Below are positions 5,250-35,355 of a DNA stretch of 40,971 bases, piece after piece. The notes under the pieces were generated by a model. That model was given only the letters and a program-made list of their open reading frames with translations. It was not told the DNA's origin and searched no databases. The stretch covers positions 1 through 40,971 of the forward strand of contig MHFI01000020.1 in NCBI GenBank assembly GCA_001804125.1, written 5' to 3'. The stretch's first letter is position 1, and each line of letters starts with the position of its first letter. The DNA is from Omnitrophica bacterium RIFCSPHIGHO2_02_FULL_51_18. GTDB taxonomy: Bacteria; Omnitrophota; Gorgyraeia; 2-02-FULL-51-18. The position numbers were made by a program, and so were the translations under genes.

Positions 5250-5415
5250 GATCCCTCGTCGCCGCTGGGCCGCGACCTCTTGTCGCGGCACGCCTCTCGG
5301 CGCACAATGTCCGCGCCGTAGAGGCCAGGCCGCGGCTCCTCGGGATAAGTTCGCACGGCGGATTTGGCGCTCCCCGCCAAAAAACTTGGCGAGTCGCGCA
5401 AATCCGGTGCTCACT
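5250..5415. repeat. Palindromic element family B, copy 1 (branched)
   Basis: 80-nt distal module nearly identical to 11361-11440 with compensatory change; additional nested hairpins GCCGCGAC/GTCGCGGC and GCCTCTCGGCGC/GCGCCGTAGAGGC. Confidence 0.75.
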
Positions 5416-5957
5416 TAATTAAGGGTTTTCTGCCCCGGCTTCCACTCGCAGCCTGTGAGCTTGCCTGATTGAAACGCCTGGAGTGTTCTTAAAGTTTCCT
5501 CGACGCTTCGGCCCACCGGCAAATCATTCACGACGGCTGAACGCAAGATGCCACCCGCATCAATAATAAAAGTACCACGGAGCGCGATCCCCTTGTCCTG
5601 AAGAAGCACATTGTAACTGCGGGAAATGCTGTGGTTGGTATCCCCGAGCATGGGAAACTGGATCTTGCCAAGCTCCTTTTCGGCCCAGGCTTTATGAGAA
5701 TAGACACTGTCCGTGCTGGCCGCCAATACCTCGGCGCCCAGCTTTTTAAACCCTTCGTAATTTTGATTGAAACTTTTGATCTCCGTCGGGCAAACGAACG
5801 TAAAGTCGAGCGGATAGAAGAAAAGCACCACCCACTTGCCCTTGTAATCGGAAAGCTTCACATCCTTAAAACTTCCGTCCGGTAAAAGCGCCTGAGCGGC
5901 AAAATCCGGGGCCTTCTGGCCGACCTGTATGTTGTTTTCAGTGCACGTTGATGTCAT
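5415..5957 (-). CDS. Peroxiredoxin (AhpC/TSA family, 2-Cys)
   Basis: FYPLDFTFVCPTEIKSF; start set to MTSTCTEN (ATG at 5957) preceded by GGGGAGG; track ORF begins at 5993. Confidence 0.93.
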   Translation of the reverse strand: MTSTCTENNIQVGQKAPDFAAQALLPDGSFKDVKLSDYKGKWVVLFFYPLDFTFVCPTEIKSFNQNYEGFKKLGAEVLAASTDSVYSHKAWAEKELGKIQFPMLGDTNHSISRSYNVLLQDKGIALRGTFIIDAGGILRSAVVNDLPVGRSVEETLRTLQAFQSGKLTGCEWKPGQKTLN

Positions 5958-6039: not shown

Positions 6040-6223
6040 GCACCCATCCTATTTATTAGCAGGCCGCATGCCTTTTCCGTAAATGACGGGATCCCTCGGC
6101 CACTCGGAAATAACTCGGCGCCGTTTAGCCAAACGGCGCCTCGGACAATTTCCGATTGGCCGCTTCCCTTGTCATTTACGTCAAAGGCATAAGCGCGGCA
6201 ATGCTAATAAATAGGATGGGTGC
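6040..6223. repeat. Long palindromic element family A, copy 1
   Basis: 22-bp perfect outer arms (6040-6061 / 6202-6223), inner stems 6079-6087/6171-6179 and 6117-6126/6131-6140. Confidence 0.85.
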
Positions 6224-11334: not shown

Positions 11335-11440
11335 GATCCCTCGTCGGTCGCCGCGGCGACCTCCTCGGGATGAGTTCGCACGGCGGACTTGGCGCTCCCC
11401 GCCAAAAAGCGTGGCGGGTCGCGCAAGTCCGGTGCTCACT
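11335..11440. repeat. Palindromic element family B, copy 2 (short form)
   Basis: gatccctcgtcgg/...cctcgggat outer arms, tcgccgcggcga palindrome, then 80-nt module shared with copy 1. Confidence 0.75.
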
Positions 11441-11877
11441 CACTTTAACCGTGACCAGGTTTGTTCGCCGACGATACCGTCGACCTTAAGATTGTTCCTT
11501 CTTTGAAACTCACGGATGGCTGCCTTTGTCTTTTTGCCTGCATGGCCGTCGACGGGGCCGGGATCGAACCCTGAACGAATCAGAGCTCTTTGAACGTCCT
11601 CCACGGACACGCCCGATACGCGGATGAGGGGCGATTGACCGGAAGTGCCGGGAGTACCGGAATGAGTCTGTTGAAGCGCCTGCTCGTAAGTCTCGACTTT
11701 AGCCTCGAGTTCCTGAATCTCGCTATCCTTTGCCTGAAGTTCTGCCTGCATCCGGGCGATTTGGTTCTGCTGCTCCGCCTTGGGATCCGGTCTCCTGGCC
11801 CGCGTCGTTGCGCATCCGGTGACAAGAAATAAACCGGCAGCAAAAAAAACTGACCCTATGGCTAAACGCTTCCTCAT
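11440..11877 (-). CDS. Lipoprotein with C-terminal peptidoglycan-binding (PG_binding_1) domain
   Basis: LVTGC lipobox; coiled coil; RSGFDPGPVDGHAGKKTKAAIREFQRRNNLKVDGIVGEQTWSRLK. Confidence 0.85.
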   Translation of the reverse strand: MRKRLAIGSVFFAAGLFLVTGCATTRARRPDPKAEQQNQIARMQAELQAKDSEIQELEAKVETYEQALQQTHSGTPGTSGQSPLIRVSGVSVEDVQRALIRSGFDPGPVDGHAGKKTKAAIREFQRRNNLKVDGIVGEQTWSRLK

Positions 11878-15217: not shown

Positions 15218-15283
15218 GTCATTTCGAACGAAGTGAGAAATCTTCTTTATGAGATTTCTCGTCGCTTCGCTCCTCGAAATGAC
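15218..15283. repeat. REP-like palindrome GTCATTTCGA...TCGAAATGAC
   Basis: Terminal inverted repeats gtcatttcga/tcgaaatgac with inner agaaatct/agatttct pairing; downstream of typA. Confidence 0.75.
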
Positions 15284-15296
15284 AGAGAATCAGTAA

Positions 15297-18232: not shown

Positions 18233-18241
18233 AGGGTGGTT

Positions 18242-18318
18242 AAAGGGGACAGCCATTTAAAAGGGGACAGCCATTTAATTTATAAATGGCTGTCCCCTTT
18301 TAAATGGCTGTCCCCTTT
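18242..18318. repeat. Palindromic element family D, copy 1 (double unit), possible bidirectional terminator
   Basis: 36-bp perfect arms (18242-18277 / 18283-18318), 5-nt loop; each arm contains aaaggggacagccattt twice; lies between convergent dusB and greA. Confidence 0.9.
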
Positions 18319-18794
18319 TAAGAGCGGCTTATCTTCAGAATCTTGTACTTCAGAGTCCCGGCTGGAATCCTGATCTCGGCGGAATCCCCTGCCTTCAGGC
18401 CCAAAAGCCCCTTCGCGATCGGAGAATTAACAGAAAGTTTGCCTTCGTCAAAATTGGCCTCATCGTGAGGCACGATCGAGTAGGTGATCTCCTCGTTCGT
18501 CCTGGCGTCCTTTAGTTTCACGGTCGCGCCGATAAACACCCGGTCCTTGGGAATTTTCGTGTCATCGAGAATTTCGGCGCGCGTCAAACGGTCTTCCAGC
18601 TCGGAGATCCTTTTTTCGTTGAACGCCTGACTGTTTTTCGCGGCATCGTACTCGGCGTTCTCCTTTAAATCGCCGAAAGCCCGTGCCCGCGCGATGTCTT
18701 CCGCGATCTCCCTGCGTTTCACAGTCTTCAAATGTTTCAGCTCTTTCCTGAGCTTCTCGTAACCTTCCCTCGAAATCAAAACCTTGTCTTCCAC
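18318..18794 (-). CDS. greA: Transcription elongation factor GreA
   Basis: LISREGYEKLRKELKHLKTVKRREIAEDIARARAFGDLKENAEYDAAKNSQ. Confidence 0.96.
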   Translation of the reverse strand: MEDKVLISREGYEKLRKELKHLKTVKRREIAEDIARARAFGDLKENAEYDAAKNSQAFNEKRISELEDRLTRAEILDDTKIPKDRVFIGATVKLKDARTNEEITYSIVPHDEANFDEGKLSVNSPIAKGLLGLKAGDSAEIRIPAGTLKYKILKISRS

Positions 18795-19436: not shown

Positions 19437-19488
19437 AGATCTTCGCGTCTGTAAGTATAATTTAAGACTAACTCTTTTTGATTCTTAT

Positions 19489-19626
19489 GCCGCGTGACTT
19501 CTCCATAAATCATGGGAGCCCTCATTCAATCGGAAAAAACTCGGCGTCTTTTAGCCAAAAGACGCCTCGGACAATTTCCGATTGAACGTCTCCCTTATGA
19601 TTTATGTCAAAGTCTTGAAGCGCGGC
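19489..19626. repeat. Long palindromic element family A, copy 2
   Basis: ATAAATCAT/ATGATTTAT, TTCAATCGGAAA/TTTCCGATTGAA, GGCGTCTTTT-AGCC-AAAAGACGCC; homologous to 6063-6199. Confidence 0.85.
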
Positions 19627-19651
19627 CCAGCGCGAGTTTTGCCAATTTGCC

Positions 19652-19699
19652 GAGCCTGCCCCCGCCTGCCGGACGGGCAGGTGCCGGCAGGCAGGGCTC
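19652..19699. repeat. GC-rich palindrome related to the typA insertion
   Basis: gagcctgcccccgcctgccggacgggcaggtgccggcaggcagggctc. Confidence 0.6.
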
Positions 19700-19775
19700 C
19701 CCGCACTTACGTCAATGCCACGGAGCATGCTGGACGAGAAACCGATCAGGCGCATGGTATAACGTGTCATAGATA

Positions 19776-32056: not shown

Positions 32057-32194
32057 TAATAGTTTAGTCGCTGCAAGTCCTCCTCTGTCATCTCGAGGAG
32101 CGAAGCGACGAGAGATCTCATCACACGACTCGATGAGATTTCTCGCTCGCCCCGCCAAATGGCGGGGCTTCGCTCGAAATGACTAAACTGTTAC
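32057..32194. repeat. REP-like palindrome inside a larger inverted repeat
   Basis: gtcatctcgaggagcgaagc...cttcgctcgaaatgac (32088-32183) flanked by gtaatagtttagtc / gactaaactgttac. Confidence 0.75.
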
Positions 32195-32363: not shown

Positions 32364-35117
32364 ATGTCTACATCATTGTACGGTAAAAACAGTCTGTGGC
32401 AATTCACGGATGAGCACGCAAGTTTTAAGGTTGAATCGCCGGATCGCTTGAGCCGCCTTTACTTCCCGCTGGCCAACGAAGCCGGCATCCTTTCCAGCAT
32501 CACTCCCAACCTTCACGGGGACATTAAAACAAGCCATAATTCGTTTTTAACCCTCCCCGTCTCGGTTGAAGACCTCCATAACACGAAATCCAGCCGGAAT
32601 TTCTGGCTTTATGTCGAAGGCCACGGCGTCTGGTCGGCTACGGGCTCTTCGGCCGTTCAATTTGCAAACAAGTTCCTGAATAAAAACGATGAGAAAGTGA
32701 CTTTGGAAGCCGGCATGCTCTGGCACAAGGTGTCGCGGGAAAATCGTCTGTTAGGCCTCAAATCTGAGATCACTAATTTCACTCCCGTCTCGGACGACAC
32801 CGTGGAACTCATGGTCGTCAGCATCACAAATATCGGAAAATCAACCCTTAAGGTCACCCCCACTTCCGCGATTCCCATCTTTGGAAGATCCGCCGATAAC
32901 TTGAGGGACCATCACCACGTGACGTCGCTTTTGCACCGCATCATTCCACATACCGCCGGCATCGCCGTGAGACCCACGATGTCCTTTGATGAAAGAGGCC
33001 ATAAAGTGAATGAGCTCCTGTACTGCGTGCTGGGCGTGAGCGGAAACGAAGAACCCCCGGCGGGCATCTTCCCGACAGTGCCCGATTTTATCGGCGAAGG
33101 CGGAAGCTTCGAGACGCCCCAGGCCGTCATCGAAAACTTTGCCCCTCCCCAGAAAGACGGAAGCCATTACCAGGGAAAATCCGCGATCGGGGCGCTTCGT
33201 TTTAAAACAGTTTCTTTGGCCCCGCGGCAAAAAACCCATTTTGTGTTGATGCTCGGCATTGCCGAAAAAGAACCGAAACTCGACGAATGGATTAAAAAAT
33301 TCGGTTCACTGGCAAAAGCGGAAATAGCCCTTAAGGAAAACAAGGCCGTCTGGACGCAAAAAGCCAGCGCGGTATCCTTTCACACGCAGGACAAAAACTA
33401 TAATGGATGGACAAAGTGGGTCACGCTCCAACCCACTTTAAGAAAACTTTTCGGATGCTCATTTCTCCCTGACTTTGATTATGGACGCGGCGGGCGCGGA
33501 TGGCGGGACCTCTGGCAGGACTGCCTGGCGCTGCTTCTGGCTTCCCCGCATGAAGCGGGGGCCCTTTTACTTGATAACTTTAACGGCGTCCGGATCGACG
33601 GCTCCAATGCCACGATCATCGGCCCAAGCGCCGGCGAGTTCATGGCGGACCGCAACAACATCACGCGCGTATGGATGGACCACGGCGTCTGGCCCTACCT
33701 CACGACGGAACTTTATATTCATCAAAGCGGCGATTTTGAGATCCTCTTCCAGGAGGCGCGCTATTTTCGGGACATGCAGTTGTCCCGCGCGAGAGAAAAA
33801 GATCCCCGCTGGAACGAAGACTACGGAAAAAACTTAAAAACCAGAAGGGGGGCCGTGGTGAGGGGCACTCTCCTTGAACACATTCTCGTGCAGCACCTCG
33901 TGCAATTTTTCAACGTCGGCGAGCACAACCATATCCGCCTTGAAAACGCCGACTGGAATGATGGCCTCGACATGGCCTATGAGCGCGGAGAAAGTGTCGC
34001 GTTTACGACGCTTTACGGGTCCAACCTCGGTAAATTGGCGTGCCTCGTCGAAGAAATCGCGAAGAGAAAAGACCTGAAAACCGTGGAACTTGCGAGGGAA
34101 CTCTTGCTTTTGTTGGACCGGGTGAACGCCAAAAAAGTGAATTACGACTCCGCGCAGGCCAAGAAAAACCGCCTTGAAAGATACTTTGAAGCCGTCCAGC
34201 CGGAAATCTCAGGCAAAAAAGTCAACGTGCCGGTCAAAAAACTTGTCGCGGATTTGAAGGAAAAGAGCGAATTCATTGCCAACCACGTGCGTAAAAAAGA
34301 GTGGGTGCAGACGCGCGCCGGTGAAGGCTTTTTTAACGGTTACTATGACAATCATGGCCGCCGCGTCGAGGGCGAATTTCCACAAGGCCTTCGCATGACA
34401 TTGGCCGGCCAGGTGTTTCCGATCATGAGCCGCGTGGCCGACAACCATCAGGTCAAGGAAATATTTAAAACGGCCAAACATTACCTTAAAGACAAAGAGC
34501 ACGGCGGCTTTCATTTGAACACGGACTTCCATACGATCCGCCCGGACCTTGGCCGCGCGTTTTCCTTCGCATACGGCGAAAAGGAAAACGGCGCGTTCTT
34601 CAGCCACATGGCCGTGATGTTCGCCCATGCGCTGTACCAGAGAGGCTTTGTCAATGAGGGCTGCGAGGTCATCGATTCGATTTACAAAATGTGCCTCCGC
34701 ACCGAGAAAAGCAAGATCTACCCGGGCATTCCTGAATATTTCAATTCCGAGGGCCGCGGCATGTACCACTATCTCACCGGCTCGGCAAGCTGGCTTGTGA
34801 TGACGCTTTTGACGCAGGTATTCGGCGTGCGCGGGTTTTACGGGGACCTTCTTTTGTCGCCCAAATTTACAAAAAACGAGTTCGAAAAAACCAATGAACT
34901 CTCCGTGGAAACGCCGTTCGCCGAGAAACGAATCCGAGTAGTCTACAAAAACCCGAAGAAAATTCCCTACGAGCACTACTGCGTCACAAAGGTCGGTATC
35001 AACGGGAAAGAACTGAAAAGTCTGGCGCTCAATCAAAAAGAAGTGCTGATCCCCAAAGAAATTCTATCCAAACTCCCCAAAAAATCCTTAAATGTCATTA
35101 CGGTGACACTGGAATAA
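32364..35117 (+). CDS. GH94-like glycoside phosphorylase (cellobiose/chitobiose phosphorylase family)
   Basis: FGRGGRGWRDLWQDCLALL-type motif (YGRGGRGWRDLWQD), GEHNHIRLENADWNDGLDMA, YPGIPEYFNSEGRGMYHYLTGSASWLV. Confidence 0.88.
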   Translation: MSTSLYGKNSLWQFTDEHASFKVESPDRLSRLYFPLANEAGILSSITPNLHGDIKTSHNSFLTLPVSVEDLHNTKSSRNFWLYVEGHGVWSATGSSAVQFANKFLNKNDEKVTLEAGMLWHKVSRENRLLGLKSEITNFTPVSDDTVELMVVSITNIGKSTLKVTPTSAIPIFGRSADNLRDHHHVTSLLHRIIPHTAGIAVRPTMSFDERGHKVNELLYCVLGVSGNEEPPAGIFPTVPDFIGEGGSFETPQAVIENFAPPQKDGSHYQGKSAIGALRFKTVSLAPRQKTHFVLMLGIAEKEPKLDEWIKKFGSLAKAEIALKENKAVWTQKASAVSFHTQDKNYNGWTKWVTLQPTLRKLFGCSFLPDFDYGRGGRGWRDLWQDCLALLLASPHEAGALLLDNFNGVRIDGSNATIIGPSAGEFMADRNNITRVWMDHGVWPYLTTELYIHQSGDFEILFQEARYFRDMQLSRAREKDPRWNEDYGKNLKTRRGAVVRGTLLEHILVQHLVQFFNVGEHNHIRLENADWNDGLDMAYERGESVAFTTLYGSNLGKLACLVEEIAKRKDLKTVELARELLLLLDRVNAKKVNYDSAQAKKNRLERYFEAVQPEISGKKVNVPVKKLVADLKEKSEFIANHVRKKEWVQTRAGEGFFNGYYDNHGRRVEGEFPQGLRMTLAGQVFPIMSRVADNHQVKEIFKTAKHYLKDKEHGGFHLNTDFHTIRPDLGRAFSFAYGEKENGAFFSHMAVMFAHALYQRGFVNEGCEVIDSIYKMCLRTEKSKIYPGIPEYFNSEGRGMYHYLTGSASWLVMTLLTQVFGVRGFYGDLLLSPKFTKNEFEKTNELSVETPFAEKRIRVVYKNPKKIPYEHYCVTKVGINGKELKSLALNQKEVLIPKEILSKLPKKSLNVITVTLE

Positions 35118-35181
35118 GTAAAAGGGGACACCCATTTATTTATAAGTTACGATTTATAAATAAATGGGTGTCCCCTTTTGT
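35116..35181. repeat. Palindromic element family D, copy 2
   Basis: 26-bp perfect arms, 8-nt loop; 66 nt identical to 35290-35355. Confidence 0.93.
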
Positions 35182-35183
35182 TA

Positions 35184-35265
35184 TGCGGAAGGAGGGATTT
35201 GAACCCTCAAGCCTTTCGGCACATGCCCCTCAAACATGCGCGTATGCCAGTTCCGCCACTTCCGC
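35184..35265 (-). tRNA. tRNA-Leu(GAG)
   Basis: Minus strand GCGGAAGTGGCGGAACTGGCATACGCGCATGTTTGAGGGGCATGTGCCGAAAGGCTTGAGGGTTCAAATCCCTCCTTCCGCA; class II variable arm, anticodon GAG. Confidence 0.93.
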
Positions 35266-35289: not shown

Positions 35290-35355
35290 AAGTAAAAGGG
35301 GACACCCATTTATTTATAAGTTACGATTTATAAATAAATGGGTGTCCCCTTTTGT
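35290..35355. repeat. Palindromic element family D, copy 3
   Basis: Identical 66-nt copy of 35116-35181. Confidence 0.93.

Follow-up and report, generated by a model that had tools for sequence, protein, structure and literature searches.

Integron attC sites are imperfect hairpins that are read as a folded bottom strand, with their structure kept better than their sequence. The units of REP elements measure 20–40 bp and have stems of 5–13 bp (PMC3733652). ERIC (127 bp) and YPAL (168 bp) are small mobile repeats of enterobacteria (PMC2759123; PMC2229807). In E. coli, hairpins are removed by SbcCD (as cited in PMC3733652). The hairpin described here, copy 2 of a palindromic element, lies in a stretch of 40,971 nucleotides from Omnitrophica bacterium RIFCSPHIGHO2_02_FULL_51_18 (contig MHFI01000020.1), which is referred to as the window. 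The element and its relatives are giant REP-like mobile palindromes and constitute a new family.

Structure of copy 2 and other repeats in the window

The hairpin at 19489–19626 has a folding energy of −63.2 kcal/mol (z = −6.5 compared with shuffles), and that of copy 1 is stronger (z = −13). The original prediction held that at least eight compensatory pairs separate the two copies while the loops remain unchanged. On the shared model structure, exactly eight fully compensated pairs were counted, together with seven pairs that are one-sided or otherwise changed. The eight were counted on a MAFFT alignment built without the covariance model, and four of them are flips or purine–pyrimidine swaps that cannot be bridged by a G·U step. 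The AGCC tip, AACTC, TCGGACAA and AAGCGCGGC are indeed identical in both copies. The three paired changes claimed for the GGCC/TTC segment hold in part: two are compensated, but one pair has become an A·C mismatch and one C·T mismatch has been healed.

Table 1. Positions of copies 1 and 2 and their parts in the window
Feature	Position	Strand	Basis or remark
Copy 1, whole hairpin with outer arms	6040..6223	+	fold; 167 bits with family model
Copy 2, outer right arm lost	19480..19626	+	fold; family model 153.8 bits
Left side of conserved internal loop, AACTC	19538..19542	+	same in copies 1 and 2
Tip loop of copy 2, AGCC	19553..19556	+	
Right side of conserved internal loop, TCGGACAA	19567..19574	+	same in copies 1 and 2; common to AACTCG-type copies
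Half (tip to outer arm) of second copy facing copy 2, fused at GCGCGGC	19620..19750 (end approximate)	-	near-identical to G000:C55 copy except insert
Small CCTGCCTGCCGG-type palindromic insert within the half copy	19661..19698	.	G000 C14 and C3 copies have a similar insert at roughly this place

At its AAGCGCGGC flank, copy 2 is fused to half of a minus-strand copy that lies directly to the right, with a GCGCGGC shared by the two at the join. The outer right arm of copy 2 is gone because the half of another copy replaces it past AAGCGCGGC. Copy 2 is thus what remains of a pair, joined through GCGCGGC, that has been damaged.

Several other repeats were observed. An 85-nt hairpin with an asymmetric loop of its own occurs twice in or near intergenic DNA (5336–5420 and 11361–11445, 91% identical). 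Perfect hairpins of the GGGGACAG/GGGGACAC type are located at 18240–18320, 35116–35181 and 35290–35355, and a tRNA gene (35184–35265) is flanked by two identical 66-nt copies of this type. An inverted 39-nt repeat (15249–15287 and 32083–32121, 95% identical) resembles a widespread class of short palindromic repeats, GTCAT..GAGGAGCGAAGCGACGA. Across the genomes studied, a second hairpin family with the ends CGGGTGAC...AGGACCCG was seen at the loci L003, L005, L030, L051, L110, L120 and L131. In L051 the bare ends directly adjoin, and others hold 69–158 nt at that point, which gives the impression of hairpins inserted into the loops of hairpins.

Family extent and occupancy of orthologous junctions

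A model built from five copies of the window's own genome (R1) detected 13 loci in this genome and copies in G002, G003, G004, G008, G010 and G012, all of the same Omnitrophota family. A second model (R2), built from 58 matches of which four were antisense hits to previously counted copies, added copies in G004 and G010, and had no match outside the family in 147 class and 193 phylum genomes (overlapping samples, strict filters). The covariance-model search proposed originally thus yielded more than 50 further matches, bringing the total to about 59 copies in 7 of the 13 genomes of one groundwater Omnitrophota family. In the Rfam comparison, likewise proposed, the only matches above the gathering cut-off in the window and at six copy loci were tRNAs. 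The open-access library searched contained no account of repeats of this kind from Omnitrophota, and no phage or plasmid relatives were found.

The element is about 200 bases long (180–230 bp), with stems of ~80–95 bp. On the strand in which it is presented here (the reading strand), CAT..CATAAG, CTCCGTAA/TTACGTC and GGGA-xCC-CTCGGC/GCCG-TC-TCCC are conserved, and one subtype also conserves AACTC-stem-TCGGACA. Copies differ in their stem sequences, in their tip modules and in their outer arms. The right ends face each other (tail-to-tail) in all seven neighbouring pairs, as they do in copy 2 and its half partner. The G010 copies are near-identical and have sharp ends. Sharp boundaries had prompted the idea of insertion into pre-existing terminator loops or of arms copied from the target, which was rejected; the outer arms look like the element's own because same-genome copies align there by eye.

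Comparisons of orthologous junctions showed both occupied and empty sites, the check that the original prediction had suggested. The bioA and bioD genes overlap or are 0–19 bp apart in G001, G003, G005, G006, G007, G009, G010 and G011, and are separated by 214 bp in G000, 436 bp in G012 and 465 bp in G002, mostly of hairpin DNA. G011, with the overlap, and G012, with the 436-bp gap, belong to one genus. Similarly, fur and mutY overlap or have a 10-bp spacing in G002, G006, G007 and G010, and the junction contains family copies in G000, G003 and G012. The presence or absence at orthologous loci expected of a MITE is therefore seen at both junctions, and genome comparison shows that the element is mobile. 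Because both junctions are filled in several genera, an old origin is possible for some copies. Around the G012:C70 copy the flanks are orthologous to those of G011 and the intergenic DNA is too diverged to locate the insertion; no clear target-site duplication was seen among relatives too diverged for a base-exact insertion point. No full-length transposon was found, and the copy alignments have no invariant terminal tag. Other large hairpin types occupy the same junctions elsewhere, namely bioA–bioD of G014 (L180, another family) and fur–mutY of G009 (L187). In G010 (L141:6449–8369), genes for a BglII-like nuclease and an MT-A70 methyltransferase lie between two inverted near-identical copies.

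Covariation and the strand that probably folds

In an alignment of 54 copies (56 distinct rows), fitted to the covariance model, 48 of the 52 pairs change on both sides. Paired cells account for 94% in this alignment and for 40–49% when the partners are slid. The double-changed cells number 540 compared with 144 in shuffles, and none of the 500 shuffles reaches the observed level. A chance origin of the paired changes is excluded. With this covariation far above the controls, no Rfam match and presence or absence at orthologous loci, the claim of an undescribed repeated element stands.

Arm-to-arm template switching can also generate perfect stems and compensatory changes of several bases (PMC8794818), and compensatory change is therefore not proof of a functional RNA here. 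Multi-base compensated arm differences do exist between otherwise near-identical copies, as would be expected of a passive palindrome whose arms are complementary solely through template-switch copying in replication, with no recognition by a protein. However, the asymmetric loops and the GTAA / GGG-CCC / CTCGGC-GCCG core are kept across genera, whereas the loops would be lost if the arms were only corrected against each other. A passive origin also leaves the dispersal to empty sites and the fixed pair orientation unexplained, which makes it very unlikely. Template switching is not sufficient alone because it would not conserve asymmetric loops; we think that both a structure-linked process and template switching act on the compensated arms.

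The arms were aligned without favouring G·U, and isolated stem mismatches were counted on the reading strand. The results show 37 A·C and 12 G·T mismatches (p = 0.0005), an excess seen in 6 of 7 genomes and independent of the method of finding the hairpin centre. Wobble is therefore tolerated on the opposite strand. Selection on an RNA from the reading strand predicts the reverse bias and a cruciform predicts equality; thus one strand, the complement of the reading strand, seems to matter. Mismatch repair with a strand bias, or an antisense transcript, could instead account for the asymmetry. Few G·U intermediates occur among the copies. When close copies are compared, about half of their double changes prove to be flips or GC–TA swaps, which have no route through G·U.

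The copies occupy tandem, convergent, antisense and divergent gene settings with inconsistent transcription direction; eight lie in divergent-gene intervals and ten are antisense to both neighbours. Thus, no fixed host transcript spans them. The orientation relative to the replication strand shows a trend only (31/48, p = 0.06). A structured RNA from the reading strand (a 3'-UTR element, terminator or small RNA), with stems kept by transcript selection, would fit the very strong covariation and the same-strand stop codon found just upstream of the copy start for 31 of 51 left neighbours. However, the divergent and doubly antisense copies, the depletion of G·U relative to A·C, the double changes unable to use G·U, the lack of an Rfam match and the empty orthologous sites all speak against such an RNA, which appears highly improbable. 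The 3'-UTR and terminator roles were rejected as being at odds with the orientations and divergent positions. On the complement, the mismatches become 37 G·T and 12 A·C, as if a transcript tolerated G·U there, which would suit an opposite-strand RNA, antisense or independently transcribed, that was dispersed as a mobile element. However, no conserved flank is present for a promoter, the outer arms and flanks differ by locus and flip-type double changes are common, so that this RNA is improbable as well.

The original prediction had left both a structured RNA and a single-stranded DNA hairpin open. The DNA part is favoured, whereas RNA on the reading strand is disfavoured by the mismatch bias, the flips and the transcription direction; the relevant folding is probably that of DNA. 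Covariation usually serves to prove that an RNA is functional, and the mobile palindromes here give extreme covariation yet point to DNA. The ratio of A·C to G·T provides a simple test for other 'covarying' metagenome candidates.

Proposed movement and relation to known systems

Copy 2 probably, though by no means certainly, represents a non-autonomous REP-like mobile palindrome and is truncated at one side. The element was found in one Omnitrophota family only and would be recognised, through its asymmetric loops, in the form of a folded single strand; the single-strand recognition is what we infer from the evidence above. In the proposed mechanism, the complement of the reading strand would fold as a hairpin, probably during replication, allowing the element to move. 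The unpaired loop bases may be recognised by a cellular or transposon recombinase, and the arms would stay complementary through structure-dependent success in moving together with arm-to-arm template switching. Such long palindromes would probably survive in a class without the hairpin nuclease SbcCD.

SbcD was detected in none of the 16 order genomes and scored above the cut-off in 1 of 117 class genomes, whereas 13 of 14 control genomes match; SbcC gave weak partial matches only. Absence of SbcCD would permit long palindromes but would leave the restriction to one family unexplained. In this family, long palindromes persist naturally in hosts that seem to lack SbcCD. More tentatively, it is conceivable that a lineage of single-stranded DNA hairpin transposable elements with stems of nearly 100 bp, whose enzyme reads bottom-strand loop bases, became possible without SbcCD in the class.

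A special case of the preferred reading names the enzyme, with giant REPs being moved by a RAYT (Y1 HUH) transposase. The bulged intergenic hairpins, the dimers and the strand specificity are consistent with it, and genes for Y1 (RAYT-type) transposases are present in 12 of the 16 order genomes, whether or not these carry the element. However, the stems of ~80–95 bp compare with 5–13 bp in REPs (PMC3733652), the GTAG tag is not seen and the examined Y1 loci gave no nearby match to the element (E up to 1; incomplete genomes may miss genes). In addition, G003 and G008 carry copies and no Y1 gene was detected in them, both genomes being incomplete. Movement by a RAYT is thus unlikely, if somewhat less so than the RNA explanations.

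The preferred single-strand reading places the element beside three described systems. With integron attC sites, it shares an imperfect hairpin, a folded bottom strand and a structure that prevails over sequence. However, the element has no cassette array and is dispersed among ordinary genes, and the RYYYAAC / GTTRRRY core sites of attC are absent from its conserved columns. ERIC and YPAL, compared by description, are of similar size, intergenic and MITE-like. In the element, by contrast, no TA duplication was seen; it combines near-perfect pairing with fast compensated divergence and occurs in one Omnitrophota family only.

The likeness to the REP/BIME/REPIN and RAYT systems extends to dispersed, intergenic palindromes, bulged stems, opposite-orientation dimers and strand-specific recognition of folded single-stranded DNA (PMC3733652, PMC8266576, PMC3116915). 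Membership of the REPs, which the original prediction had named as a finding that would count against it, was not borne out. The hairpins of 180–230 nt exceed the REP unit and stem sizes, CGTC of the GTAG/CGTC tag occurs solely internally at loop edges, and no copies flank a RAYT gene in the Y1_Tnp loci examined; the opposite-orientation dimers of REPs are present, in 7 of 7 pairs as well as in copy 2 and its half partner. Compared with REPs, the element lacks a visible GTAG tag and a RAYT neighbour, is approximately five times longer, carries several successive conserved internal loops and turns over its arms quickly by paired changes.
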